Shown here piece by piece: positions 2,513 through 38,703 of a stretch of 64,000 nt of DNA. A program made the translations under genes and the position numbers. Numbering within the stretch: position 1 is the first letter of the stretch; the number at the start of each line of letters is the position of its first letter. Source of the DNA: Roseburia hominis A2-183 (GTDB lineage Bacteria; Bacillota; Clostridia; Lachnospirales; Lachnospiraceae); assembly GCF_000225345.1 (NCBI RefSeq), contig NC_015977.1, forward strand, positions 3,031,001 through 3,095,000. The letters are read 5' to 3'. The notes beneath the pieces were generated by a model that was given only the letters and a program-made list of their open reading frames with translations, was not told the origin of the DNA and made no database searches.

Positions 2513-3883
<1,371 letters not shown>

Positions 3884-4022
3884 TTACTCTTAGTATATTG
3901 TGCTGTGTATACACTGCAATATTTTCATCAGATACATTTTAGTATAAAATGTTTTCATGTGCAATCTTTTTTTCTTTATTCCGCTAAATTGTTAAAGCTT
4001 TATAGCAGGATAGCAAAACCGG

Positions 4023-4066
4023 AAAAAACGCCTCCGGCAGAAGACTCTCTCCTGCCGGAGGCGTTT
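4023..4066 (-). terminator. Strong terminator of the fab operon
   Basis: A perfect 12-bp GC-rich stem (4029-4040 with 4052-4063), extended by A:T pairs to 4026-4066. On the minus strand it is followed by TTTTTT. It ends the minus-strand operon about 30 nt after the last gene. Confidence 0.93.
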
Positions 4067-4093
4067 GGCTATTCTTTCCTAATTTCAAATCTC

Positions 4094-4357
4094 TTAAATC
4101 AAGCGATAAATAATAATCGCAATCAGCACGCCGATAATGCTGGCGATGGTAATCTTGATTGATAATCCGAATGTGATCACCAGAATGCCCAGATCCAGCA
4201 CAATCGGGCTGGCGAAGCCGAAGCTCTGCCCATAATTCAGCCAGCTAAGTCCCGAAACACCTGCAGCAGCATTTCCGATAAAACCGCCCAGCATAATTCC
4301 TGCCAGAAGCATTAAAAACAGCGCCCAGTTATTCTTGCCCAACGCTCCTCTGCTCAT
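4094..4357 (-). CDS. DUF4321 small membrane protein
   Basis: An 87-residue protein with two hydrophobic segments (about residues 9-30 and 54-85) and the DUF4321-type core LSWLNYGQSFGF...LDLGI. The start at 4357 is preferred because GGAGG lies 10 nt upstream; the longer frame overlaps fabT. It is 4 nt downstream of fabT, last gene of the fatty-acid operon. Function is unknown; a membrane role is inferred only from hydrophobicity and context. Confidence 0.75.
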   Translation of the reverse strand: MSRGALGKNNWALFLMLLAGIMLGGFIGNAAAGVSGLSWLNYGQSFGFASPIVLDLGILVITFGLSIKITIASIIGVLIAIIIYRLI

Positions 4358-4361
4358 ATGT

Positions 4362-4814
4362 CTATTCCTCCTCCAATCCATATTCCTCTTGAAAATAGTC
4401 CACGAGCTTTGCCAGCGTATAGATCAAAATCGGCGTCTCCTGCTCATTCAGCTGTCCCTTGATGTTGGCGATCATTTTGCGGTGAAACTCTTCGTGATGC
4501 GCATATGCCGCTTTTCCTTTGTCCGTCAAGTACACCCACACCACGCGTTTGTCCTGCTTGCTGCGTTCTCTTACGGCATACCCCTTCTCAGTCAGGCCAT
4601 CCATCGCCTTCGTCAGCGTACCGGTCGTGACATCCATCAGCTTTGCCACCGCCGTCATGCTTTTCGGCTCCTTTAATCCGATGGCTTCTATAATATGAAA
4701 ATCGTTGTAGCTGATGTCCTTAAATTCCTCATTCACCAGACATCTCGCCTCAATCTCCATAATATCCTTGAATAGCCTTACCAGTAATTCGTTCAATGTC
4801 TCATCCGTGGTCAT
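4362..4814 (-). CDS. fabT: MarR-family fatty-acid synthesis repressor
   Basis: A 150-residue winged-helix MarR protein (MTAVAKLMDVTTGTLTKAMD recognition region, wing near KQDKRVVWVYLTDKG). In streptococci and many clostridia the MarR protein encoded with fabH/fabK is FabT, which represses fab genes when bound to acyl-ACP. Here it is ninth in the fab operon, and a near-perfect FabT box lies in the operon promoter at 12302-12318, so autoregulatory FabT is the best call. Confidence 0.86.
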   Translation of the reverse strand: MTTDETLNELLVRLFKDIMEIEARCLVNEEFKDISYNDFHIIEAIGLKEPKSMTAVAKLMDVTTGTLTKAMDGLTEKGYAVRERSKQDKRVVWVYLTDKGKAAYAHHEEFHRKMIANIKGQLNEQETPILIYTLAKLVDYFQEEYGLEEE

Positions 4815-4860
4815 GTATCATACTCCTGTTCATAGCAGTATCTGTTCCCGACCACACCGC

Positions 4861-10028: not shown

Positions 10029-10964
10029 CTACTTTGCCATATATTCCTTGAAGTCACCCATAGTTTCCACATTGTATACCTGCACGGTATCTGCCGGGAC
10101 TTCGGTCTGCTTTAAGATCTTTTTCATAAATCCGCTCAGTGTATGACCTGGACCGATCTCCACAAACGTATTCACACCATCCGCAAGCAGACGCTCCATA
10201 GACTGCTGCCAGCGTACCGGTGCACACACCTGCTGTTTCAGCAGCGGCTTCACAGCCTCCGCTTCCCGGACATAGTCCGCCGTCACATTCGCCAGATACG
10301 GCAGCTTTATCTCCCGGAGTGTTACCGCCGCAAGCGCCTCTCCCAGCTTCTCTCCCGCCTCTTTTAGCATGGGCGAGTGAAACGGCCCGCTGACCTTAAG
10401 CGGCACCGCACGCTTCGCACCGCTCTCTTTGCACTGTTCGCCTGCCACCGCAACTGCCGCTTCCTCTCCGGTGATTACAATCTGTCCCGGGCAGTTGTAA
10501 TTCGCAATGGATACCGTGCCCGCAGTCTGTCCGCAGATCTCCTCTATTTTTTCCGCGTCCAGTCCCAGCACCGCCGCCATCGCGCCGCCGGCCGGCACCG
10601 CCTCCTGCATGTAGATGCCGCGCTTTCTCACAAGCGCAAACGCATCCCTCTGCTCCATCACGCCGCTTGCCAGCAGTGCCCCGTACTCTCCGAGACTTAA
10701 TCCTGCCGCCACATCCGGTGTTCTTCCTTCTGCAAGCAACGCCTGAAGGATCGCCGCCTCCACGGTCAGCATGCCAATCTGTGTGTATTCGGTGATATTT
10801 ATTTTCTCATTTTCTTCAAAGCAGAGCGCCGCAATATCCAGACCGGACGCCTCGGATGCCGCCGCAAACACGTCCCTGCTCACGGGAATCTGCTCGTAAA
10901 AATCTCTGCCCATACCGATGTACTGTGCTCCCTGTCCCGGGAACAAAAATGCTGTCTTTCCCAT
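10029..10964 (-). CDS. fabD: Malonyl-CoA:ACP malonyltransferase
   Basis: A 311-residue acyltransferase. It opens with FLFPGQGAQYIGMG, has the nucleophile Ser90 in GLSLGE, and a downstream His in GPFHSPML. It loads malonyl groups onto ACP. The start at 10964 lies 1 nt after the fabK stop, so the two are tightly coupled. The longer frame overlapping fabK is rejected. Confidence 0.95.
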   Translation of the reverse strand: MGKTAFLFPGQGAQYIGMGRDFYEQIPVSRDVFAAASEASGLDIAALCFEENEKINITEYTQIGMLTVEAAILQALLAEGRTPDVAAGLSLGEYGALLASGVMEQRDAFALVRKRGIYMQEAVPAGGAMAAVLGLDAEKIEEICGQTAGTVSIANYNCPGQIVITGEEAAVAVAGEQCKESGAKRAVPLKVSGPFHSPMLKEAGEKLGEALAAVTLREIKLPYLANVTADYVREAEAVKPLLKQQVCAPVRWQQSMERLLADGVNTFVEIGPGHTLSGFMKKILKQTEVPADTVQVYNVETMGDFKEYMAK

Positions 10965-10965
10965 G

Positions 10966-11946
10966 TCATTCTCCCTTATCCGATGTGCGTCCCAAGAAGA
11001 CGCTCTTCTTTTCCCAAAAATCTCCGTCACCTAAAAGCCCCGCGGTCTGCGCCATCAGTTCCTCTATCATCTCCTGACAGGTCTGTTCTTTTTTCACAAG
11101 TCCCGCGCACTGTCCTGCCATCAGGCTGCCGTGCACCACATCCCCGTCCATCACTGCCTTTCGCAAGGAGCCAAGCGTCAGCTGCTCCAGTTCCTCAAAT
11201 CCGGCGCCCTCTTTTTCGAGTTTTAAATATTCGCGGCTCATCGCATTGCGCAGAACCCGGATCGGATGTCCGGTGCTCATGCCTGTAACCTCGGAATCAA
11301 TGTCGCGCGCCTTTACGATCCGTTCCTTGTAATTTTCATGTACAATAGACTCCTTCGCCACGACAAACCGGGTTCCCATCTGTACCCCCTCTGCGCCAAG
11401 CATAAAGGAGGCTGCGATCCCTCTTCCGTCCGCGATACCGCCCGCTGCAATGACCGGAACCGACACAGCATCCGCCACCTGCGGCACCAGCGTCATCGTC
11501 GTCTGCGCACCGATATGTCCGCCGGACTCCATTCCCTCTGCAATCACAGCGTCCGCGCCAGCACGCTCCATCATCTTCGCCATGGCAACGCTCGCCACGA
11601 CCGGGATGACCACCACGCCCGCCTGCTTCCATGCCTCCATGAACTTTGCCGGACTTCCCGCACCGGTTGTGACAACCGGCACTTTCTCTTCTATGACAAT
11701 CTTCGCCACTTCCGGCGCGTTTGGATTGAGCAGCATGACGTTCACGCCAAACGGACGGTCCGTCCGCGCCTTTACCTCACGGATCTGTTCTCTTACCACT
11801 TCCGGCGGCGCGCTTGCCGCTCCGATGATTCCGAGTCCACCCGCGTTCGACACTGCTGCCGCCAGGTGATATTCCGCCACCCATGCCATACCACCCTGAA
11901 TGACCGGATATTTTGTTCCAAGCAATCTGCTTACCCTTGTTTCCAT
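10966..11946 (-). CDS. fabK: Enoyl-ACP reductase II (FMN-dependent)
   Basis: A 326-residue TIM-barrel flavoprotein of the nitronate monooxygenase/FabK family (YPVIQGGMAWV start; EGMESGGHIGA and AAGGIADGRG phosphate/FMN-binding loops). It reduces trans-2-enoyl-ACP. Its place inside the fab operon argues for FabK rather than a nitronate monooxygenase. FabK enzymes are insensitive to triclosan. The start at 11946 has GAGGAG upstream; the N-terminal extension of the longer frame is charged and unlikely. Confidence 0.93.
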   Translation of the reverse strand: METRVSRLLGTKYPVIQGGMAWVAEYHLAAAVSNAGGLGIIGAASAPPEVVREQIREVKARTDRPFGVNVMLLNPNAPEVAKIVIEEKVPVVTTGAGSPAKFMEAWKQAGVVVIPVVASVAMAKMMERAGADAVIAEGMESGGHIGAQTTMTLVPQVADAVSVPVIAAGGIADGRGIAASFMLGAEGVQMGTRFVVAKESIVHENYKERIVKARDIDSEVTGMSTGHPIRVLRNAMSREYLKLEKEGAGFEELEQLTLGSLRKAVMDGDVVHGSLMAGQCAGLVKKEQTCQEMIEELMAQTAGLLGDGDFWEKKSVFLGRTSDKGE

Positions 11947-14518: not shown

Positions 14519-14560
14519 AATCGTTATAGTAAAGTTCGTTATAATAATATCGAATATGAA

Positions 14561-14645
14561 AACGCTAGGGGTGCAGATTCTGCTGAGAGATGATCGTTCA
14601 TTGACCCTTATTACTTGAACCGGATAATACCGGCGTAAGGAAGCT
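14561..14645 (+). ncRNA. TPP riboswitch aptamer (THI element)
   Basis: Contains the conserved THI-box blocks GGGGTGC (14568-14574), CTGAGA (14583-14588), GACCC, and the 3' block CCGGATAATACCGGCGTAAGGAA. Followed by a terminator and thiT, a thiamine transporter gene, which is the expected target. Thiamine pyrophosphate binding should switch thiT off. Confidence 0.96.
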
Positions 14646-14663
14646 TTTTGCAATAACGCAGAC

Positions 14664-14703: not shown

Positions 14704-15387
14704 ATGAATAACTTTTTTGCTACACCGGAAGGCGGCTGGGGTGACGGTTCCGTCCATCTGACTACCGTCGGTATTGCAATCGTCATCGCAGTCATCGCCC
14801 TTCTTCTGATTGTTGCCGCTATCGTGCGCCACAAGAACGCCACGCACAAGTCCGCACTGACCACAAAGCAGCTCGTCTACTCTGCTGTTGCGATCGCGCT
14901 GGCCGTTGTGTGTTCGATGATCAAGCTGTTCGACATGCCAATGGGTGGTTCCGTCACTCTGCTGTCCATGCTTTTCATCGTTCTGATCGCTTACTGGTAT
15001 GGTCCGTATGTCGGCATTATGACCGCAGTGGCTTACGGCCTGGTGCAGTTCGTACTGGAGCCGATTTTCTACACAATCCCGCAGATGCTCTTGGACTACC
15101 CGCTGGCATTCGGTGCTCTGGGTCTTGCCGGCTTCTTCAATAAGAAAAAGTGGGGACTTCAGATCGGATATATCGTTGGCGTTATCGGACGTTTTGTATT
15201 TGCAACGATCTCCGGCGTTGTATTTTTCGCAGCATACGCCCCGGAAGGCATGAGCCCGCTGGCATATTCTGCCGGCTATCAGGCATCCTACCTTGTTCCG
15301 GAGGCAATCATCACCTTGATTATCATCTGCATTCCACCGGTATCACATGCACTTGCGGAAGTCCGCAAACGCGCCGTGGAAGCGTAG
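14704..15387 (+). CDS. thiT: Energy-coupled thiamine transporter S component
   Basis: A 227-residue membrane protein. An N-terminal extension with one hydrophobic segment (about 21-43) precedes the usual six-helix ThiT core (TTKQLVYSAVAIALAVVCSMIKLF; LLSMLFIVLIAYWYGPYVG; EPIFYTIPQMLLDYPLAFGALG; GRFVFATISGVVFFAAYAPEGMSP). The YGP, aromatic and Asp-Tyr-Pro residues are ThiT signature positions. It works with a general ECF module encoded elsewhere. Controlled by the TPP riboswitch just upstream. The extension is longer than in Lactococcus ThiT. Confidence 0.93.
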   Translation: MNNFFATPEGGWGDGSVHLTTVGIAIVIAVIALLLIVAAIVRHKNATHKSALTTKQLVYSAVAIALAVVCSMIKLFDMPMGGSVTLLSMLFIVLIAYWYGPYVGIMTAVAYGLVQFVLEPIFYTIPQMLLDYPLAFGALGLAGFFNKKKWGLQIGYIVGVIGRFVFATISGVVFFAAYAPEGMSPLAYSAGYQASYLVPEAIITLIIICIPPVSHALAEVRKRAVEA

Positions 15388-15410
15388 GCAGCGCTATAAA
15401 AAGGACTGCC

Positions 15411-15986
15411 GCCCCCGCGCTTTGCACTTTAAAACGGGATACGTTTTATTATAAGAATATTGGAGAATATGAAGTTCCAGAATGCAACCAGAGGCGGCAA
15501 TTCTTTGAAGCAAAATCCGAGGATTTCTTCCGTGCCGCGTCGAACATCGAGTTCTGTGTCTTTCCACGTTTGGACAGTCCCCGGGGCGTGTCCGACAAAA
15601 CACAGACAATGAGCGGACTTTCTGGTGCCCCTAGTGGCACCGCTTCACAGACAATATAAAACCGCGCGAACCGAAACTCGTTATCATCTGCTATTGAAAA
15701 CAAGGCAGATGATAACTCAGACATCGGCTTCGCGCGGTTATGTTGTGTTCAGTGGTGCCAACAAGGGGCACACACAAAAGTCCTTAAATTGTCTGCGGTT
15801 TGTGGACACGCCACGTGGAATGTTCCAAACTTGGAAAAACACAGATGATCAAGGATGTTCGACGCGGCATGGTTAGAAATACCGGATTTTGCGCTTAGAA
15901 TTGCCGCCTCCGGTTGCATCTGGAACGTGATAGTCTCTGCTTCCCATAATAAAACGTATCCCGTTTATAGTGCGATGCACGCGGGC
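15411..15986. repeat. Long hairpin-forming element, copy A
   Basis: A 576-bp imperfect palindrome between convergent thiT and the ROK kinase gene. The arms pair almost throughout: the outer stem (GCCCCCGCGC side with GCGGGC), AAAACGGGATACG with CGTATCCCGTTT, then on to the apex stem TTATCATCTGC (15681-15691) with GCAGATGATAA (15705-15715) and a 13-nt loop. The two arms are recognisably different: type 1 (left) carries GAGCGGACTTT, type 2 (right) carries AAAAGTCCTTAA. The same architecture recurs as copies B and C. Open frames inside (up to 91 codons) lack ribosome-binding sites and are taken as by-products. Confidence 0.9.
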
Positions 15987-15999
15987 GAAAGCCCTTTTT
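15983..15999 (+). terminator. Small intrinsic terminator after copy A
   Basis: GGGC-GAAA-GCCC followed by TTTTT on the plus strand. It would end thiT or element-A transcripts just before the stop codon of the convergent ROK gene. Confidence 0.7.
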
Positions 16000-16936
16000 A
16001 ATCTAAGAGCATCTCTACGCAGCCGTACATTCCGGCGTCATTCCCGAGTCCCGCAAGTACGAACTTTGTGTTGGCGCATGCGTGGAATGAAGTGGCAACA
16101 AAGTGCTTCTTCACTGCATCCGTGAGAATATCACCAGCTTTGGAGACGCCTCCACCGATTACGATGACCTCCGGATTCACAACACATGCGATATTGGAAA
16201 GTGCTGCTCCTAAAATGCCACATACCTCATCGACAACTTCAAGCGCCACTTTATCACCCGCTTTGGCTTCGTCAAATACGTCCTTTGCGGTCAGATCTGC
16301 ATGTTTTCTAAGCGCAGTATCTTCGGATGCCTTCTCGAGGGTACGCTTCGCCACACGCACAACTCCGGTTGCAGACGCATACTGCTCCAGACAGCCGTAC
16401 TGTCCGCAGTTACACTGCTCCTTCTCGTGTGCATTCACTGTAATATGACCAATCTCGCCACCGGCTCCGTCAAATCCGGCTACAACTTTTCCGTCGACAA
16501 TAATGCCGCCGCCGACTCCGGTTCCCAGCGTTACCATGATGACATCTCTGCAGCCTTTTGCCGCACCCTGCCACATCTCGCCGAGTGCCGCCACGTTTGC
16601 ATCATTTCCTGCCTTCACCTTCAGTCCGGTCAGATCTCCAAGTTCTTTTTCTACATTTACAACACCCCAGCCGACGTTCACGCAGCGGTGTACCACACCG
16701 TCATTTTTTACCGGTCCCGGCACACCGACACCGATTCCCTGCACATCGTTCCTGGAGATTCCCTTTTCTGTCAGCTTTCCCTCAATCGCCTGAGCCACAT
16801 CCGACAGAATCGATGCTCCGCCGTTTTCCTTATTCGTCTTGATCTCCCATTTGTCAATGAGCTTTCCATCCGTCTCAAAAAATCCGATCTTGCAGGTCGT
16901 TCCCCCTACGTCAACTCCAAATGCATATTTTTTCAT
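15998..16936 (-). CDS. ROK-family sugar kinase (glucokinase-like)
   Basis: A 312-residue ROK kinase. ATP-binding DVGGTTCKIGFF (9-20), catalytic Asp in GNDANVAALGE (about 105), and the zinc-binding cluster CNCGQYGCLEQYAS (about 175-188) are all present. Firmicute proteins of this type are glucokinases phosphorylating cytosolic glucose; substrate is inferred. A second ROK gene (22754-23707) is strongly similar. Its stop codon is 12 nt from the end of long hairpin copy A. Confidence 0.9.
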   Translation of the reverse strand: MKKYAFGVDVGGTTCKIGFFETDGKLIDKWEIKTNKENGGASILSDVAQAIEGKLTEKGISRNDVQGIGVGVPGPVKNDGVVHRCVNVGWGVVNVEKELGDLTGLKVKAGNDANVAALGEMWQGAAKGCRDVIMVTLGTGVGGGIIVDGKVVAGFDGAGGEIGHITVNAHEKEQCNCGQYGCLEQYASATGVVRVAKRTLEKASEDTALRKHADLTAKDVFDEAKAGDKVALEVVDEVCGILGAALSNIACVVNPEVIVIGGGVSKAGDILTDAVKKHFVATSFHACANTKFVLAGLGNDAGMYGCVEMLLD

Positions 16937-19471: not shown

Positions 19472-21115
19472 CTATAACTCTATCATGTGATATGCGATTC
19501 CCAGTTCCTCCAACAGCTTCTGCTCCCGTCTCTGGCAGGTAAACAGGATCGTCTGCGTCCCGTTCGCCGCCAGCAGCCGCAGCGTCTGCCGCAGACGGTC
19601 ATCGTCATACATTGCAAAGGTTTCATCCAGAAGCAGCGGCAGCGGTTCTTCCTGTGTCACAATGCTTCCGACTGCCATGCGGAACGCAAAATAGAACTGT
19701 TCCAGCGTTCCTCTGCTGAGCGCCTCCGGCAAAACCTCTCTTCCCTCCGTCTGCACGCGGAGCTTTCCCGTTTCGTCCACTTCCGCCAGATCGTATTTTC
19801 CCTCTGTAATCGCAGAGACATATCTGGATACCACACTGTTGATCTCATCTCTCCGCTCGTCCCCGTATTCCCTTGACAGGCGGATGATCTCATTTTTTGC
19901 CATCTCGACGGCATCAAGTTCCAGCTGGAGTTCTCTCTCCCGTGCGCCCGCTCCGCTGCATACTTCCAGCTGTTCTGCCAGATTGCATCGTCTCGTTTCC
20001 TTCTCCGCGAGTGTTTCCTCCAACCCTGCAAGCAAGCGTCTGCTCTGCTTTTCCGACTCCGCAAGCCGGATGCGCACCGCGTCCTCCGCTGCCGCGCTCT
20101 CTGGCGCCTCCGCCGTCTCCTTCCCATTTTCTCCTGCACGCGCCTGCCCCGCGCTCCTATGGCGCAGTATGCCTGCCACTCCGATGCCGAGCAGAATGGC
20201 AAGAACGCCTTCCGCCGCCGCAAACAGCTCCGGCGCATAACCCGCGCGGTGATACCACCATGCATTTCCTGCCAGTCCCACTGCTGCCGCCAGTCCCAGA
20301 AAAAGGCTTCTCACAGGAAAACCGTTTCCGTCAGCTCTCCTTTCCCTGTCTGACGCAGTCCCCGCATTTTCCGCAGTTCGGGCATCTTCCGGTCGCTGTC
20401 CGTCTCTCACCTGCGGGTGCATCCTGGCATACGCCCGCATATCCGCTGCCGCCTTCTCGATCTGCTCACGAAGCCTGCCGCAGTCCTCCTCGAGCATGCG
20501 CCGCTCCACGGTAAGCTGCTGCAGCTGTTGTTCCCGCTTCTCCTGTTCACTTTTGATCTGCGACTGCAGGCTTCTCTTTTTCTGCTCCAGTTTTTCCACC
20601 GCACGCGTCACGCGGATTCCCGCATTGCCCCCGTCCGACATATCGGAAAGATACTCTGCCAGAAGTCCGGTCAGCTCTGCTCCCGTCACCGCCCGGCACT
20701 GCGGAATATCACAGGTGTTCTCATACGCCTCCCGGGTGACCCCTCCTAAAAGCATTCCAAGATCTCCGTACGCGACGGACAGTTCCTCCCCGTCCGCCAG
20801 ATTGCAGAGGCGTGCTCTCGGTTCTTTATGGTAAAAATTGCGTTCCAGATAAAACGGTCTGCCTCCGACGCTAAACTGCAGCGCGCCGCTGTAATAGGAC
20901 GGTGCATGCCACGGCTCATAGCGCAGATAGCCCTCCGTCCCCTTTGCCCGTCCCCGGCCTTTTTCCAGCCCGAACAGCATCGCGGTCAGAAACGCGTGCA
21001 GCGTCGTCTTACCGGCTTCGTTTTTTCCATATACAATGTTGATCCCCGGGGCAAAATCCACGGTTCTATCTGCCAGCTTTCCAAAGCGAAAAATTGCGGC
21101 TCTGTCAATCTGCAT
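19472..21115 (-). CDS. SbcC/YhaN-like AAA ATPase, short and with a hydrophobic centre
   Basis: A 547-residue ATPase. Walker A GKNEAGKTT (about 30-38) follows an SbcC/RecF-like N-terminus. Coiled coils flank a central hydrophobic stretch (SLFLGLAAAVGLAGNAWW and a second segment ending VLAILLGIGVAGIL). The C-terminal Walker B/D-loop is PLLLDETFAMYDDDRL. It pairs with the nuclease-like gene upstream, as YhaN does with YhaO. It is about half the length of Bacillus YhaN, and the hydrophobic hairpin suggests membrane association. A role in DNA end processing or stress is inferred only. Confidence 0.82.
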   Translation of the reverse strand: MQIDRAAIFRFGKLADRTVDFAPGINIVYGKNEAGKTTLHAFLTAMLFGLEKGRGRAKGTEGYLRYEPWHAPSYYSGALQFSVGGRPFYLERNFYHKEPRARLCNLADGEELSVAYGDLGMLLGGVTREAYENTCDIPQCRAVTGAELTGLLAEYLSDMSDGGNAGIRVTRAVEKLEQKKRSLQSQIKSEQEKREQQLQQLTVERRMLEEDCGRLREQIEKAAADMRAYARMHPQVRDGQRPEDARTAENAGTASDRERRADGNGFPVRSLFLGLAAAVGLAGNAWWYHRAGYAPELFAAAEGVLAILLGIGVAGILRHRSAGQARAGENGKETAEAPESAAAEDAVRIRLAESEKQSRRLLAGLEETLAEKETRRCNLAEQLEVCSGAGARERELQLELDAVEMAKNEIIRLSREYGDERRDEINSVVSRYVSAITEGKYDLAEVDETGKLRVQTEGREVLPEALSRGTLEQFYFAFRMAVGSIVTQEEPLPLLLDETFAMYDDDRLRQTLRLLAANGTQTILFTCQRREQKLLEELGIAYHMIEL

Positions 21116-21158: not shown

Positions 21159-22211
21159 TCAGCAGTCATAGCCGAGCAGCGCATTCACACCGTACTCCAG
21201 TGCCTTTGCGGTGCAGACGCCCGGTTCTTTTTTTCGCATACTGCGTATGTATTCCCCAAGTATCGAATCCGCGTGCTCCTCCAGCAGCTTCTCGTAATCA
21301 TAATCCGGCACCGTCTGGTCTGTAATATCCACAATCCGGTCGAGCTTCCCGATCTCCTGCACATCAAAGGAATACTCCGGATCTTTTTTCCCTTTGATAT
21401 ACAGACGGAAATACTGATACTCCGGTCTCTGCTCCAACAGCTCCTTTGCCCAGTCCCACAGCATACGGTCTGTCGTGTTCCGGTCTGCCTGATACATCTC
21501 ATGACAATATTCGCAATGGCGCAGCGGATAAAAATACACATCTGCCCCCGCTGCACCGAACGTTCCCATCCAGTATCCGTGCGGCCCGGTGTCGTTGCAG
21601 TCTGTCGGCTCCAGGCTTCCCGCCATTACCGCCTTGTGCGGCATGAGCCAGCCGCTCCTGTGAATGTGTCCCGCCGCAATATAATCAAATCCGTTCTGTA
21701 ATATCCGCTCCGCCGAAAACGCAATATGGCGCTCATCGCCGCCATGTGCCAGCAGGATGTTGCACCTGCTGCGGTTTACAGGGCGCAGATCATCATACCG
21801 TCTGTCACGGATCTCCCTGTGCCAGTAGCTTAGCCCGTATACGGTCGTGTTGTATTCCGGAAAATCGACTGCTTCCGCTTCCTCTTTCTTAAATACTGTC
21901 ACGTTATCCGGCCACAAATCCGCGAGGTAATACGACTTTTCCCTGAGATAATCATGATTGCCGGCAATCAAAAGAACCTGTGTGTCCGGAATCTCTCCGA
22001 AAAGGCGGCTGACCTCCCGCACCTCCTTTTTGAGCGGCTGTGCGTGGAAAAGATCCCCCGTCACAAACAGAAACTCCGGTTTTTCTCTTTTTGCCACCCC
22101 GATCACATCTGCAAAAGAATCCCAGATCTGCCGCGCCCGCTGCTCACTCCACGGCTTTCCCTGATCCGGCTTTACCCCGAGATGTACGTCTGCGATATGT
22201 ATAAATTTCAA
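21159..22211 (-). CDS. SbcD/YhaO-like metallophosphoesterase (DNA repair nuclease)
   Basis: A 350-residue calcineurin-like phosphoesterase. The metal-binding motifs are ADVHLG (Asp/His), GDLFH, GNHDY and, later, AHGGDERH and AAGHIHRS. A TTG start at 22211 is chosen because GGAGA lies 9 nt upstream and the protein then begins at the conserved KFIHIADVHLG; the longer ATG frame adds unrelated residues. Co-directional with and 43 nt ahead of the YhaN-like ATPase, with which it probably forms a Rad50/Mre11-like complex. Confidence 0.88.
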   Translation of the reverse strand: MKFIHIADVHLGVKPDQGKPWSEQRARQIWDSFADVIGVAKREKPEFLFVTGDLFHAQPLKKEVREVSRLFGEIPDTQVLLIAGNHDYLREKSYYLADLWPDNVTVFKKEEAEAVDFPEYNTTVYGLSYWHREIRDRRYDDLRPVNRSRCNILLAHGGDERHIAFSAERILQNGFDYIAAGHIHRSGWLMPHKAVMAGSLEPTDCNDTGPHGYWMGTFGAAGADVYFYPLRHCEYCHEMYQADRNTTDRMLWDWAKELLEQRPEYQYFRLYIKGKKDPEYSFDVQEIGKLDRIVDITDQTVPDYDYEKLLEEHADSILGEYIRSMRKKEPGVCTAKALEYGVNALLGYDC

Positions 22212-22299
22212 ACTGCATCTTCTCCGTTCTGCGTTAATTACCTCTATTGTACACTGTCGCGCCATGTTTCACAAGTTTATCCGGCATGTACCCTCTCCC

Positions 22300-22761
22300 A
22301 AAAATAACTGCCGGATTTCTGAAGCCGGAATGGACGATGTTTTATGATGGAGATGTCAGAAAATACGAAGTTCCAGAATACAGCCGGCAGCGACATTCTG
22401 ATCGCAAAATCCGGTATTTCTAACCATGCCGCGTCGAACATCCTCAATGATCTGTGTTTTTCCAAGTTTGGAGCATTCCACGGGGTGTGTCCGCAATCCG
22501 CAGACAATTTTAGGACTTTTGTGTGTGCCCCCTTGTTGGCACCAGAAAGTCCGCTCATTGTCTGCGGTTTGTCGGACACTCCCCGTGAACTGTCCAAACG
22601 TGGAAAGACACAGAATTCGATGTCCGACGTGGCACGGAAGAAATACTCGGATTTTACTCCAAAGAATTGTCGCTGCCGGCTGCATCTGGAACTTATCGTT
22701 TTCTCTCTCTCCATACAAAATATATGCCATTCTATGCTTCAGAAATCCGGCAGTTATTTTT
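22300..22761. repeat. Long hairpin-forming element, copy B (inverted, apex deleted)
   Basis: A 462-bp palindrome in the opposite orientation to copies A and C: its left arm is the type-2 arm and its right arm type 1. The outermost 24 nt of the two arms are perfect complements, and the right end (22754-22761) overlaps the stop codon of the ROK kinase gene. Middle blocks are clearly homologous to copy A. The conserved apical domain is missing; the arms join directly at GGTGCC, consistent with deletion between the two GGTGCC words seen in copy A. Confidence 0.88.
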
Positions 22762-23707
22762 CCTCTGAGGTGTCCAGCAGAAGTTTCATGCTGCCGTACA
22801 TGCCGGCATCATTTCCCAGACGTGCCAGTTCAAACGGAATGTCCGCACCTGCCGGCAGTACATCGGGTCTGTAATACTTCTGTACGATACGCAGGATGAT
22901 CTCTCCCGCCCCGGCGATTCCTCCACCGATCACAAAGACCTCTGGATCTATCACTTCCGCCACGGCTGCGAGCGCGCTTCCAAGCGCTTTTCCCAGAACC
23001 TCCACAGCATCCAGTGCCAGACGGTCGCCTCTCTTTGCCGCATCCAGAATCTGTTTTGCCGACAGTTCCGGTGTGTCGACGAGTATCGTGTAGGGATCCT
23101 TTTTCTCCAATAATTTTCTCGTTATGCGGATCAGTCCCTTTGCGGAAGCATACTGCTCCACGCACCCGTATTTTCCGCAGACACACCGCTCAATCTCCTT
23201 GTGGAACACGGTCATATGCCCGATCTCGCCCGCGATTCCATGGGCGCCTGCGAGCACTTTTCCATTCAGGATGACCGCTCCGCCCACGCCTGTTCCAAGC
23301 GTTACCATCACCATATCGCGGTACCCCCTGCCGCCGCCCTGCCACAGTTCTCCGAGAGCCGCCGCATTTGCGTCGTTGCAGACACAGACCTTTTTCTGCA
23401 GGCGCATCTTTAACTGCTCCTGCACCGGACATGCCTCCCATCCCAGATTCACAGCGCCTCTGACAACTCCATCCCGCCCGGCAATTCCCGGTGTGTCAAT
23501 GCCGACGCCTATGATCTGCTCATCCGCAAGCCCCCGCTCTCTCTGTCTGCGTTCCAGTGATGCTGCCACATGTTCTATAATATGTTCCCCCTGTTCACTG
23601 GTATCCGTTGGAATCTCCCATTTTTCCATCAGTTTCCCGCTGTCTGTAAACAGACCAAGTTTGCAGCTTGTGCCCCCGACATCTACGCCAAAACCATACT
23701 TCTCCAT
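22754..23707 (-). CDS. ROK-family sugar kinase, second paralogue
   Basis: A 317-residue ROK kinase parallel to the one at 15998-16936: DVGGTSCKLGLF, CNDANAAALGE with catalytic Asp, and the zinc cluster CVCGKYGCVEQYAS. The start at 23707 matches the paralogue's N-terminus (MEKYGFGVDVGG) and follows GGGGGA; the longer frame is rejected. Substrate unknown (glucose or another hexose). Its last codons form part of the terminal stem of long hairpin copy B. Confidence 0.9.
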   Translation of the reverse strand: MEKYGFGVDVGGTSCKLGLFTDSGKLMEKWEIPTDTSEQGEHIIEHVAASLERRQRERGLADEQIIGVGIDTPGIAGRDGVVRGAVNLGWEACPVQEQLKMRLQKKVCVCNDANAAALGELWQGGGRGYRDMVMVTLGTGVGGAVILNGKVLAGAHGIAGEIGHMTVFHKEIERCVCGKYGCVEQYASAKGLIRITRKLLEKKDPYTILVDTPELSAKQILDAAKRGDRLALDAVEVLGKALGSALAAVAEVIDPEVFVIGGGIAGAGEIILRIVQKYYRPDVLPAGADIPFELARLGNDAGMYGSMKLLLDTSEEK

Positions 23708-23956
23708 GTTTTCCCCCTGCCCGCAGCATCTGATCGTCTTCTCCCCCGTCAGACGCCGCCTTTTTTCTTTGTCCTCATTATAGGACAGATCCATACTGTG
23801 GAACAATTACACATCTTGGCTTTATTTTGCCATATTTGTTCTTCTCTGTATCTTTCCAATCTCCGTGCACCGTAATACAGTCTCATCTCCACTCACACGC
23901 CCGGCTGCTGTCACATCTCTCTCCGGGATACTGGTATTCTTATCCCCGTCTTGCGG

Positions 23957-35034: not shown

Positions 35035-37017
35035 CTATTTCAGATAAGGAAAGAATACTTCACTCTTTTCCTTTTTGTCAAACATGTTGTTGTACTGCAA
35101 AATATTATAGTTCCGGATCCAGTCCGCTTCCTCCCCCGTCGCTTCCTCGATATGCAAAAATCCTCCGGCAGACTTGGAATAATAGCCTCTGGAATTGATT
35201 GCCGGAATGGTCTCCATCATGTCCGCGAGGAACTGATTGTACGCCGGAAGCTCTATTCCTGCCCTCTCCAGTGCCAGCGTCGAGAGATAATTGATGCTGG
35301 TGACCGGCAGTTCCACCTCCGTGCTCTCATAGTTCGTCCAGATGAAAAACGGTATCGTATACAGATCTTCCAGTTCATCCTCGGTCAGTCCCGAAAGTCC
35401 CTTGCCGTTTAAGTTCGGATAAAAGCTGGACGAAAGGCTCGGCTGGTGATCGCCGAAAAATACGATCTCCACCGGATCATCCACATTTTGAAAATAGGAG
35501 ATCAGATACTCCAACGCCGAATCACTCTCGTGCACCAGAGAGAGATACTGATTGACATCCGGATAGTTTAAGCCCAGCAGGCGTACCTTCTCATCAAAAT
35601 TATCGTACTTTTCCGTATAACCGCCATGGTTCTGCATGGAAATGCTCATGATGAACAGATCCTCATTCGCCGCACGGCTCTCATAGCGGTCAATGATTTT
35701 CTCATACAGTTCCCGGTCGGTAATATATTCCCGCAGAAGCTTCGTCTGGTCAAAATCGTCGATAAAATGTGTCTCATCAAACCCGAGATCCGGATACACT
35801 GCATTGCGGCTCCATCCGGTCTCATAGTACGGATGCATTGCCACACAGGTATAACCGTCGTTCTTTAAGTTGGACACAATCGAGGTCGGCGTCTTGGAAA
35901 TATACTGCTGGTATACCACGGAACCGCTCGGCAGAAATGCCATGGAGTTCCCGGTCATAAACTCCCACTCCGAATTCGGCGTCTTCGCACCGAACACGGA
36001 AGACAGCGCATATCCGTGAATGGCATTCTCCTTCAGGGAGTGGAAATAAGGCGCCACATCAATATTCGTGGAAAAATCTCCCACCACCGAAAGATCCGCA
36101 TACGACTCGCTCATGACCACGATAATGGCCGGCTTTTCTCCCGGATCAGCCGCCACATCCGCATATGCCGAGGCAGCGTCTTTCTCTCCCTGCTTCTTCC
36201 CGCCGCTATCACCGCCAGAATACTGTTCTTCCAGCGCTTTCACCGCCTCACTGGAATACCCGTCGGGCGCAGCGATAAAACAATCTCTTACACTCAGCAC
36301 AAAATTCAGAATATATCCGTTGCGGTAGCTTCCTTTCTGCTCCCAGGTCTCTGTCACTATGTACTCCGTCTTATGACCGATATACACGCCGCTCAGCACG
36401 GCAAGAGAGATACAGATGATCGCCATCGGCACTCTCTTTTTAAAGGAAACGTGAAGCTTGCGGATCAGCGCCACATAGAGCGTGGAAATCAGAATCACAT
36501 AGCCCGCCCGGTCATCCATCACGAACTCATAATTGCCCGCCACCGAAAGTCCGGTCTGGATGGATTTCAGGTCGCTGAAAATAAATTCGTTCCCGCGGAA
36601 CAGATATACGAAATAGTTGATTCCCGCCAATGACACCAGAAAAATGTGGGAAATCATGCAGGTAAGTCCCGTATTATTGGTAAAAACCTGTACCGCCAGA
36701 AATACCACCAGACAGCACAAGATATTGAGCAGCATCTTCGGCTGTGTGATCTTGGCGCGAAGCTCTGCATCCAGCAGCAGATACTGCACATGATACGCCG
36801 TGAAAATACTGCTGGCGCCGATCATCAGTCCGGTCCAGACCCACGGGATCTTCTCTGACAGTTCCACCTCCAGGCTCTTAAATAGGAAGTAGCACGCTCC
36901 GAATACCGGCAGCGCCCACACCGAAAAGCCGATTTTCCAGAACAATACCGCGGCAAAGATCATCGCCACCGCAAGTCTGCCCAAATTACCCTTGTCAAAA
37001 TATAATTTTATTTTCAT
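35035..37017 (-). CDS. LTA synthase family sulfatase-fold membrane protein
   Basis: A 660-residue protein with five N-terminal transmembrane helices (about 10-230) and a large extracellular sulfatase/LtaS-type domain (about 290-600). Metal- and phosphate-site motifs include VVMSESYADLS, the catalytic-Thr region GAKTPNSEWEFMTG and FGDHQPSLSSSF. LtaS transfers glycerol-phosphate from phosphatidylglycerol to build lipoteichoic acid; other members decorate glycolipids, so the product is not certain. It lies next to the flippase/radical SAM genes, across long hairpin copy C. Confidence 0.9.
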   Translation of the reverse strand: MKIKLYFDKGNLGRLAVAMIFAAVLFWKIGFSVWALPVFGACYFLFKSLEVELSEKIPWVWTGLMIGASSIFTAYHVQYLLLDAELRAKITQPKMLLNILCCLVVFLAVQVFTNNTGLTCMISHIFLVSLAGINYFVYLFRGNEFIFSDLKSIQTGLSVAGNYEFVMDDRAGYVILISTLYVALIRKLHVSFKKRVPMAIICISLAVLSGVYIGHKTEYIVTETWEQKGSYRNGYILNFVLSVRDCFIAAPDGYSSEAVKALEEQYSGGDSGGKKQGEKDAASAYADVAADPGEKPAIIVVMSESYADLSVVGDFSTNIDVAPYFHSLKENAIHGYALSSVFGAKTPNSEWEFMTGNSMAFLPSGSVVYQQYISKTPTSIVSNLKNDGYTCVAMHPYYETGWSRNAVYPDLGFDETHFIDDFDQTKLLREYITDRELYEKIIDRYESRAANEDLFIMSISMQNHGGYTEKYDNFDEKVRLLGLNYPDVNQYLSLVHESDSALEYLISYFQNVDDPVEIVFFGDHQPSLSSSFYPNLNGKGLSGLTEDELEDLYTIPFFIWTNYESTEVELPVTSINYLSTLALERAGIELPAYNQFLADMMETIPAINSRGYYSKSAGGFLHIEEATGEEADWIRNYNILQYNNMFDKKEKSEVFFPYLK

Positions 37018-37133
37018 ATGTTTCCTTATTTACGCTTTCTTTACATATTTTTTGCATGCCAACGTTAATTTTATCATGACTTGTGCGTTTGTCAATTTCC
37101 CAAACCTTAAACTTTTCAAAAGAGGCGCAAAAT

Positions 37134-37710
37134 GAGGCTCGCACACAGGGCGGAGAATAGATTGCCGGTCACAATAAAATGTAAGATGCAATAAAGTTCC
37201 AGATAGAAACAGTGCATAGGATATTCGTTGGAACAAAATGCGAGAATTTCTTCTCTGCCGCTTTTTATATCCAATTCCGTGTCTTTCCACGTTTTGACAA
37301 TCCGCGGGATGTGTCCGACACGCCGCAGACAATGAGCGGACTTTTTAGTGTTCCTAACATCACCGCTTCACAGACAATATAAAACCGCGCGAACCGAAAC
37401 TCGTTGGCATCTGCTATTGAAAATAAGGCAGATGCCAATTCAGACATCGGCTTCGCGCGGTTATGTTTTGTTCATTGGTGATGTAAGGAACACACAAAAG
37501 TCCTTAAATTGTCTGTCGGCCTGCGGACACACCCGCGGAGTGCTCAAAACTTGGAAAAACACGGATCATCACAGATGTAAAAAGCGGCAGAGTTAGAAAT
37601 TCCGTATTTTGCGATCCGAATTCCTACGCACTGTTTCTATTCTGGAACTCTGCTGTACTTACTGTTATCGTATCACTGCCAGTCTATTCTCCGCCCTGTG
37701 TACCAGCCTC
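37134..37710. repeat. Long hairpin-forming element, copy C
   Basis: A 577-bp palindrome, same orientation as copy A and within one base of its length. The terminal stems (37134 onward with 37683-37710) differ completely from those of A and B but pair with each other. Apex stem TTGGCATCTGC (37404-37414) pairs with GCAGATGCCAA (37428-37438); copy A has AT/AT where C has GG/CC. GTGTTCCT with AGGAACAC and GCCGCTTTTTATATC with GATGTAAAAAGCGGC likewise replace different but paired blocks of copy A. The right end lies 15 nt from the stop codon of the flippase-like gene. Confidence 0.9.
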
Positions 37711-37725
37711 ATATCACAGGCGGCG

Positions 37726-38703
37726 CTATCGTTTGGCTTGTCCCGTTTTTTTGAGGTAGATGCGGCGTATGATGACCACAACCGCCCCCACCAGAAACGG
37801 GAATACGAAGGTACCGAAGCGGTACAGAAGCGACGCGGAGCCTGCCAGTCCGGTTCCGACAATTCCGGAAAAGAGTGCAGTAAAGACGAACTCGGTAGAG
37901 CCGATTCCCGCCGGTGACGGAATGACTGCCGCAAGCATGACAGAAAGCGATGTGACCGCCATCGTCTGCGGGAGCGTAATCTCCCCCTGCCCCAGAAAGA
38001 TCAGATACGGGATGGAATACCAGAATGCGAACTTGATGAGGTTCAATCCCACTGCACCCGCAACCAGCCGCTTCTCTCCCATCAACTGTCTGGATGCATC
38101 CTCCAACATCTGGCACTGGTCATGAAGCATTGCTGCCTGCGGATCAAACCGCCCTTTCGTCTTTCCATTGAAGAAATCCACCACCCAAAGCAACATGCGG
38201 TGAAACTGCCTGGAACAGCTGAACAGAATTAAAACCACGGTGATGATCAGCGTTACAAGATATCCCGCCAACAGCAGCCACATATACTCCCCAAAATGTA
38301 CCCGCATATAATTCCAGTTCAGTGCGAACAGAATCATTGAGAAAAACGCGATACTGATCTTATGAAACGCGTACTGCAGCATATACATTCCGAAGCTCTT
38401 GGAATACTCTATACCGTGCTCTCCCAGATAGACAATCGCGGCAACCCCTGCTCCGCTGCCAAGTGTCGCCACGCGGTAAAAAGAGCACAAAAAGGCATTG
38501 GTAATACCCATGCCTAATGTGAATTCACGATTATATTGTTTTGCAAGCAGCGTGGTAATCACGCCCTCGACACAGTGATACACGACAGTCATTGCACAGA
38601 TGCCTGCAATGACCGCCGGTGTCGTTTTTTCTAATTGTTCTAAGATCGGTCCTGCTGAATCCCGGAATGTATAAACAATGATTCCGATGATGACAAGTAC
38701 CAA
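37726..38703 (-). CDS. Flippase-like membrane protein (UPF0104/LPG synthase transmembrane domain)
   Basis: About 325 residues with about eight transmembrane helices, of the family that includes the lipid-flipping half of MprF and AglD-like proteins (FYRVATLGSGAGVAAIVYL; IPSPAGIGSTEFVF near the C-terminus). The start is uncertain: the first ordinary start codon is TTG at 38703, inside the first helix. The frame is open upstream to the preceding stop, and an AAGGGG site is spaced 8 nt from an in-frame ATC at 38739, which would give the family-like N-terminus SKAKKQILKW. Co-transcribed with the radical SAM gene. Confidence 0.85.
   Translation of the reverse strand: MVLVIIGIIVYTFRDSAGPILEQLEKTTPAVIAGICAMTVVYHCVEGVITTLLAKQYNREFTLGMGITNAFLCSFYRVATLGSGAGVAAIVYLGEHGIEYSKSFGMYMLQYAFHKISIAFFSMILFALNWNYMRVHFGEYMWLLLAGYLVTLIITVVLILFSCSRQFHRMLLWVVDFFNGKTKGRFDPQAAMLHDQCQMLEDASRQLMGEKRLVAGAVGLNLIKFAFWYSIPYLIFLGQGEITLPQTMAVTSLSVMLAAVIPSPAGIGSTEFVFTALFSGIVGTGLAGSASLLYRFGTFVFPFLVGAVVVIIRRIYLKKTGQAKR

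Follow-up and report, generated by a model that had tools for sequence, protein, structure and literature searches.

We examined a 64,000-nucleotide stretch of the Roseburia hominis A2-183 genome (hereafter the window; positions 3031001-3095000 of a single 3,592,125-base contig, the 3.59-Mb genome), in which an original prediction had placed three very long hairpins, here called copies A, B and C. Copy A lies between two convergent genes, thiT and a gene for a ROK kinase. Each copy folded, as RNA, into one imperfect hairpin: the minimum-energy structure of copy A is unbranched and runs from about 15397 to 16000 (-357.8 kcal/mol, z -32, with z taken against shuffles, 20 for copy A with a mean of -174.8 kcal/mol), and copies B (22300-22761; -283.8 kcal/mol, z -25) and C (about 37132-37712; -340.4 kcal/mol, z -28) are likewise single long hairpins. 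A separate inverted-repeat scan placed the arms of all three as in these folds. The features are given below in window coordinates; R1 denotes a covariance model built on the 191-nt inner domain.

15397-16000, + strand: copy A, whole hairpin including its A-tract/T-tract base (AAAAAGGACTGCCGC...AAAGCCCTTTTT), from the minimum-energy fold
15403-15412, + strand: left end motif of copy A, GGACTGCCGC, from the motif position
15412-15602, + strand: left (type 1) arm of copy A, a variable outer part followed by a conserved part GCAAAATCC..ATTTCTTCC..TTCTGTGTCTTTCCACGTTTGGACA
15603-15795, + strand: inner conserved domain of copy A, CAGACAATGAGCGGACTTT ... GAAACTCG-hairpin-CTCAGACA ... AAAAGTCCTTAAATTGTCTG, the region of model R1 (202.7 bits)
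15796-15995, + strand: right (type 2) arm of copy A, complement of the left arm
14704-15387, + strand, and 15998-16936, - strand: convergent neighbors of copy A, thiT and the ROK kinase gene (Pfam)
22300-22761, - strand (family orientation): copy B, a hairpin without the inner hairpin domain, with 26-nt perfect end arms (covariance-model score 30 bits)
21159-22265, - strand, and 22754-23806, - strand: neighbors of copy B, a metallophosphatase gene and a second ROK gene (Pfam)
37132-37712, + strand: copy C, with its inner domain at 37326-37515 and copy-specific outer arms (212.5 bits)
35035-37017, - strand, and 37726-38703, - strand: neighbors of copy C, a sulfatase-domain gene and an LPG-synthase-like gene (Pfam)

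The two arms of an element had also been predicted to be distinct, and they are: in copy A, GAGC(GGACTTT) stands opposite (AAAGTCC)TTAA, and this stretch has no pairing in the family consensus either. Because the arms differ, each copy has a direction, and copy B is oriented opposite to copy A. Open frames of 82-176 amino acids overlap the window copies, as palindromes tend to give, and a Pfam scan of ten such frames found no family below E 0.1.

Three occurrences in the window was correct, but the family is far larger. A 24-base core pattern (up to 3 mismatches) matched 82 sites in the genome, 45 forward and 37 reverse, compared to none for the reversed pattern, while a looser core pattern gave 84 sites, at least one of them apparently spurious. 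Our counts of arms and gene context use 70 of these 84 sites; the 14 dropped were 1 without a left anchor and 13 with an extension below 60 nt (zero in 3 of them). The 70 copies span 417-742 bp and have a median nearest-neighbor identity of 91%, with the closest pairs at 96.2% over 526 nt and 95.5% over 629 nt. When nine close pairs were aligned, the similarity ended in most at or near GG / CC, with unlike flanks beyond, and in two it ended further in on at least one side. Ends could be recognized on both sides in 29 of the 70 copies, which share terminal inverted repeats and a typical base of aaaaGGRRYTGYYGC...GCRRCARYYCCtttt, and the end motif (TGCCGCAATAAGCATA) matched the genome 64 times, with many of the matches paired around hairpins. 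No target-site duplication was visible by eye in the flanks of these 29 copies, which tend instead toward complementarity (aaaa/tttt). The inner stretch also varies: it is shorter than 180 nt in 5 of 79 measured copies, four of which (60-64 nt, including copy B) have no inner domain, and it is 221-226 nt in 13 of the 79, with an extra mini-hairpin in those displayed. Two short hairpins, at L134 3667-3799 (133 bp) and L135 5461-5689 (229 bp), keep the outer arms without the center, and are probably tip deletions of the element.

The inner domain has a conserved fold. In an alignment of 26 inner domains from three genomes (18 from R. hominis, 7 from G077 and 1 from G070; 206 columns), double-sided changes that keep the pair occurred in 38 of 59 predicted pairs, and 94.8% of cells pair, compared to 79.7% in shuffles and 35-42% when the partner was slid by 1-3 columns, a comparison biased in favor of structures that, here and below, were derived from the same alignments. 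None of 500 shuffles matched the observed value on any of five measures. A second alignment, of 27 domains drawn from twelve genomes and with 35 pairs, shows pairing in 91.1% of cells compared to 62.2% in shuffles, and at most 1 of 500 shuffles attained any measure. The unpaired motifs CTAG..CTAA, TCACAAA..TAT, and GAAACTCG opposite CTCARACA are mostly fixed while the helices vary. The original prediction had recognized no described RNA class, and Rfam agrees: there was no match over the copies at gathering thresholds, and at loose thresholds copy A had only three sub-threshold miRNA/snoRNA matches (E 0.47-3). Copies without shared structure would have spoken against the prediction; we found instead that the structured core is conserved across species.

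The copies are concentrated at gene ends (gene context being taken from a greedy open-frame caller, not from annotation). Convergent genes flank 43 of the 70 copies and tandem genes 25 (9 copies run along the gene direction and 16 against it); 1 copy has divergent neighbors and 1 is in a context left unassigned. Convergent gaps number 5 of 47 in the window, including that of copy A, and the excess of copies over this one-window baseline is large (binomial p ~1e-24). Where a gene end faces a copy, 100 of 112 stop codons are within 60 nt (median 5), while downstream start codons are a median of 99 nt away (27 sides). The hairpin overlaps the coding end in 45 of 112 cases, a soft figure because the ends come from an extension that rewards G-T pairs. 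The 26 loci from other species are 12 convergent, 11 tandem, 2 divergent and 1 unassigned.

The outer ends resemble terminators. In the 29 copies with recognizable ends, at least 3 A residues precede the left end in 23, at least 3 T residues follow the right end in 20, and both runs are present in 18, compared to 16%, 11% and 2.1% at random flank positions; the layout of an intrinsic terminator (GC stem, A-tract before, T-tract after) is thus found in 18 of 29. We considered that the end motif might be the general terminator sequence of this genome, and rejected this, with 1 match in the 376 kb searched. At the thiT-ROK junction, the site of copy A, genomes G076, G006 and G078 have an ordinary terminator of ~35-45 bp with A- and T-runs (by eye). 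Seven named loci have rok and thiT matches that are convergent and less than 900 nt apart, and in four of them (L216, L219, L222 and L236) the junction holds a plain terminator. In the other three we found a weak hairpin only (L235), a terminator within a gap of 878 nt where there is probably a further gene (L218) and a 245-bp hairpin of dissimilar sequence (L228, ~10936-11180).

A covariance-model search of relatives had been proposed with the prediction, and it extended the family. With R1 (E ≤ 0.001; up to 41 candidates per genome scored), we found matches in 12 of the 62 genomes searched from the genus, and in 9 of the 30 with completeness of 90% or more and contamination of 5% or less. 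The R. hominis genome had at least 41 matches, G013 had 13, G062, G073 and G077 had 11 each, G070 had 6, G067 and G007 had 4 each, and G010, G020, G076 and G082 had one each; these counts include both strands of some copies (in G077, the 11 matches occupy 7 distinct places). A second model, R2, was run over 392 genomes (173 genera) of the order with the best 6 candidates per genome scored, and matched at least 2 genomes and genera, R. hominis and G403 (another genus, 5 matches); known-positive members of the genus may lie outside this draw. Among the named loci, 68 searched with R1 and 80 with R2, only L230 (from the Lachnospiraceae metagenome-assembled genome [MAG] SC0379_S9_8) matched, and its hairpin has a folding energy of -369.5 kcal/mol (z -26). 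In relatives, blastn with part of copy A was insensitive, finding 0 of 59 relatives, a false negative relative to the covariance search. There was no match to copy A by blastn in phage and plasmid records, none to one exact core pattern in viral contigs, and none to one exact pattern in genome contigs, a set from which near genomes may be absent. The family is real, abundant, conserved in fold, located at gene ends and outside Rfam, and relatives of different sequence and the same fold are present in other gut species.

To relate the copies to each other, we built a FastTree tree of 96 inner domains, made up of 73 R. hominis copies and 23 of the 26 loci from other genomes (three short loci were left out). 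All 73 R. hominis domains formed one clade (support 0.97), as did those of G007, G013, G062 and G073, each separately (0.99-1.0); those of G070 and G077 did not form single clades. Expansion within lineages is evident from these groupings. Six loci of other species are at gene ends that are also occupied in R. hominis, with both flanking genes matching in three. The R. hominis copy at the shared gene end was never the best match, ranking 19th to 39th among the R. hominis copies in four cases and giving no match in two, and we therefore rejected the idea that copies at shared sites are closest kin. At three of the six ends the two copies share one orientation, and at the other three they are reversed relative to each other. 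The low ranks together with the mixed orientation point either to repeated insertion at favored sites or to homogenization within genomes.

Starting from the observed copy number, structure, covariation and position at facing gene ends, and from the ordinary terminator observed at the copy A junction in relatives, we think it somewhat better than an even bet (roughly 60%) that this is a non-autonomous mobile family of giant foldback elements that replaces intrinsic terminators and is predicted to terminate transcription itself. The original prediction had offered a large structured RNA, a foldback element or a protein-bound DNA structure; of these, we favor the mobile foldback element, akin to a miniature inverted-repeat transposable element (MITE), over a stand-alone RNA gene, based on the dispersal of the copies (~82), their symmetric outer ends, the 95-96% pairs with unlike flanks, the single clade of R. 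hominis domains and the terminator-type sites. The prediction had also set the family apart from known insertion sequences (IS) and MITEs, which holds in that we found neither a target duplication nor a parent transposase, but not in that the family behaves like a MITE.

Each copy is a 0.4-0.7-kb imperfect hairpin with a conserved inner domain that bears direction and has fixed internal loops, with long arms complementary within the copy and differing between many copies, and with outer ends of the form GGRRYTGYYGC...GCRRCARYYCC, beyond which an A-run and a T-run frequently follow. We propose that such a copy could move as folded single-stranded DNA or RNA recognized through its core, with the mobilizing enzyme supplied in trans, and would take the place of an intrinsic terminator hairpin, which would leave no target duplication. 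Its base would then terminate transcription from both sides, making the insertion nearly harmless and accounting for the high copy number. There is a precedent in IS1272: three new insertions had inverted repeats as targets, two of them just downstream of genes, and the "inverted-repeat-replacing" transposition described there replaces the target repeat without target duplication (PMC5678879). A terminator-type inverted repeat is a possible target here too, in view of the ordinary terminators that G076, G006 and G078 have at the thiT-ROK junction.

Several results weigh against this explanation. Insertion was not seen directly, and no empty site from the same species was available for comparison; 41 of the 70 copies do not have recognizable ends on both sides, and 27 of the 70 are not established as lying between convergent genes. 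Some of the shared sites could reflect common descent, and the conservation of the inner domain across species exceeds what a passive MITE would need. Moreover, a search of the genome with the end motif found no autonomous partner with the same ends. The 14 regions examined all proved to contain copies of the hairpin or pieces of one (with open frames listed for L136, L137 and L140), and the unpaired matches that we examined are on hairpin copies, fragments or IS110-interrupted copies, except for a 2-mismatch site at 95271, where there is no hairpin match; four further 2-mismatch sites fell outside the examined set. Enzyme families were tested in 22 genomes, 8 of which are element-rich members of the genus (at least 4 matches). 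We take IS1272 to belong to the IS1182 family and DDE_Tnp_1_6 to be the IS1182 transposase domain. Unlike IS1272, which carries a transposase gene, the hairpins had none that we found, and DDE_Tnp_1_6 was present in 0 of the 8 element-rich genomes, with a weak partial match in G403. Y1_Tnp was present in 3 of the 8, as was the reverse transcriptase RVT_1, which sets the family apart from retroelements and group II introns. None of the three tracks the presence of the element, and we rejected each as a universal mobilizer.

The sole transposase seen among the frames of L136, L137 and L140 is that of an IS110-type IS (PF01548, PF02371), which lies inside two copies in the R. hominis genome, in both at one and the same conserved CTAG close to the inner loop (by eye):

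L137, ~3320-4840 (1.99 Mb): IS110-family insertion
L140, ~2530-4080 (0.49 Mb): IS110-family insertion with an identical 418-amino-acid protein

This IS may be a passenger for which the hairpins are a possible target site.

MITEs are short, multicopy elements with inverted ends and no transposase. Unlike MITEs in general, these elements are palindromic throughout, with arms that covary, no target duplication and no parent IS found. Repetitive extragenic palindromes (REP) and the bacterial interspersed mosaic elements (BIME) that contain them are 20-40 bp palindromes associated with RAYT (Y1) transposases. Like REP and BIME, the hairpins are high-copy extragenic palindromes and probable IS targets (the IS110-type IS in two copies), but at 417-742 bp they are more than tenfold longer, and Y1 genes were found in only 3 of the 8 element-rich genomes. 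That REP palindromes are targets for insertion sequences is reported (PMC1525189). In the Bacillus cereus group, bcr1 is described as a group-specific repeat with mobile features at 11 to 130 copies per genome, and the repeats discussed there are 100-400 bp and tied to TTTAT motifs (PMC6542083). Compared by description, our family is like bcr1 in being a short, high-copy, group-specific repeat and unlike it in consisting of 0.4-0.7-kb single hairpins at gene ends. A full-text literature search, judged by title and abstract opening and covering few subscription papers, found no description of the family.

Three further loci indicate that giant hairpins probably form a broader pattern in these bacteria, made up of at least two families. 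A seed scan of 80 named loci and the window gave 24 candidates for long hairpins. In L257, from another lineage, there are three within 21 kb (centers 2280, 17706 and 18534), two of which are 97.5% identical over 281 nt, and these are perhaps a separate, recently mobile hairpin family. A long hairpin at L268 ~20540-20900 has the GAAACTCG...CTCAGACA pair in an otherwise different sequence, and could be a remote relative that R1 and R2 failed to detect. In L220, a ~350-nt hairpin just downstream of the orthologous ROK gene, beyond an ordinary terminator, contains a TwoAYGGAY RNA (RF01731, 119 bits, at 1353-1522 on the - strand); the poorly conserved external stem of TwoAYGGAY may there be part of a larger element.

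We tentatively entertain a stronger version of the mobile explanation, which we regard as doubtful: that the hairpins make up a mobile-element type of their own, a "mega-hairpin" that is palindromic over its full length, travels as a folded single strand, is recognized by its structured core and swaps for a terminator, with arms re-copied from the local site to give each copy private complementary arms, and with an enzyme of none of the tested classes. The hairpins in L257, L220 and L268 would then be parallel members.

The strongest of the rival explanations, although we consider it unlikely, is a large structured noncoding RNA class, acting either in cis as a 3' untranslated region (3' UTR) module or as a small RNA, in which the inner domain would bind a protein or ligand, the stem would present or protect it, and copies would spread or be kept through their action on many mRNAs. 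The compensatory changes in 38 of 59 inner pairs fit this, as do the unpaired motifs CTAG..CTAA and GAAACTCG/CTCARACA, conserved in several species. The L220 hairpin, from a Lachnospiraceae MAG, is a further point in its favor, since its core is TwoAYGGAY and it stands just after the orthologous ROK gene. TwoAYGGAY (RF01731; PMC2864571, PMC4333381) has been proposed as a CsrA-binding RNA (PMC4333381). In this one instance the placement is alike; copy A had no RF01731 match even at E up to 5, and R1 and R2 both miss the L220 hairpin. Furthermore, selection on one RNA strand should favor G-U pairs, and in fixed windows we found them no commoner than A-C mismatches in the variable arms (zones 60-165 nt; 176 G-T to 191 A-C) and about equal to them over all four zones (325 to 295). 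An earlier outer-arm tally (490 to 330) used ends biased by the G-T-rewarding extension. This argument is tempered by the zone beside the core, where G-T predominates (123 to 36; 26 to 68 in the core itself), and by the possible masking of such a bias where convergent genes transcribe both strands. The copies follow the direction of neighboring genes weakly if at all (9 tandem copies the same, 16 opposite), which also counts against the RNA explanation. We infer that pairing between the arms is maintained in the DNA itself or on both strands, and not through folding of an RNA from one strand.

We considered that the hairpins might not be mobile at all. In that case hairpin-templated mutation (template switching) would have lengthened the terminators of convergent genes at their own sites until they became giant palindromes, and gene conversion would make the copies alike. 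Arms do match better within a copy than between copies (means of 22.4, 28.2 and 15.3 in three successive zones, compared to 12.2, 14.8 and 8.1), although only 18, 6 and 22 of the 70 same-copy scores exceed the 95th percentile of cross-copy scores, few because many copies are related; in the flanks beyond the ends, 8 of 70 do. In addition, the outer arms of L191, L201, L204 and L210, all from other species, are near-perfect inverted copies with sequences unlike those of the other copies displayed. Growth in place would account for both observations and for the six gene ends occupied here and in another species, and gene conversion would also yield one-genome clades. In contrast, close copies (92-96% identity) differ mostly by changes in a single arm that break pairs (973, compared to 56 compensated changes, with ~17 expected by a rough estimate and with copy pairs that are not independent), and thus rapid arm-to-arm conversion was not seen among them. 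The compensated share grows with the distance between copies, up to 0.38 per single change. Growth in place would also erase the conserved internal loops, and does not fit the similarity between copies ending mostly at the same end motif; we consider it improbable. Least probable is a MITE that belongs to a known transposase family and has a parent IS no longer present in the genome: it would fit the symmetric ends, the dispersed copies and close pairs, and the ten open frames free of Pfam families, but no parent IS with these ends was found, the three candidate enzyme families are absent from most element-rich relatives, the end sequences differ between species and no target duplication was visible by eye.

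If the mobile foldback explanation is true, convergent gene ends of gut bacteria are being colonized by an element disguised as a terminator, through a route that has no known enzyme. Long palindromes are expected to be unstable in bacteria; about eighty natural replicates in one genome, together with those in further species, offer a test of how long palindromes persist and of the folded core as the recognized part. The interpretation of Roseburia RNA-seq and antisense signals would be affected as well, because any mRNA that runs into a copy would have a giant hairpin at its end.

Lastly, we note the neighbors of the window copies. For the ROK kinase next to copy A, the best-matching relatives come from Roseburia and other Lachnospiraceae related to it. 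A hairpin copy abuts the 3' end of both ROK kinase genes in the window (15998-16936 and 22754-23806), and a long hairpin also adjoins a ROK gene in L230, on its 5' side, and in L220. Upstream of thiT there is a thiamine pyrophosphate (TPP) riboswitch (14557-14658), as expected for this gene.
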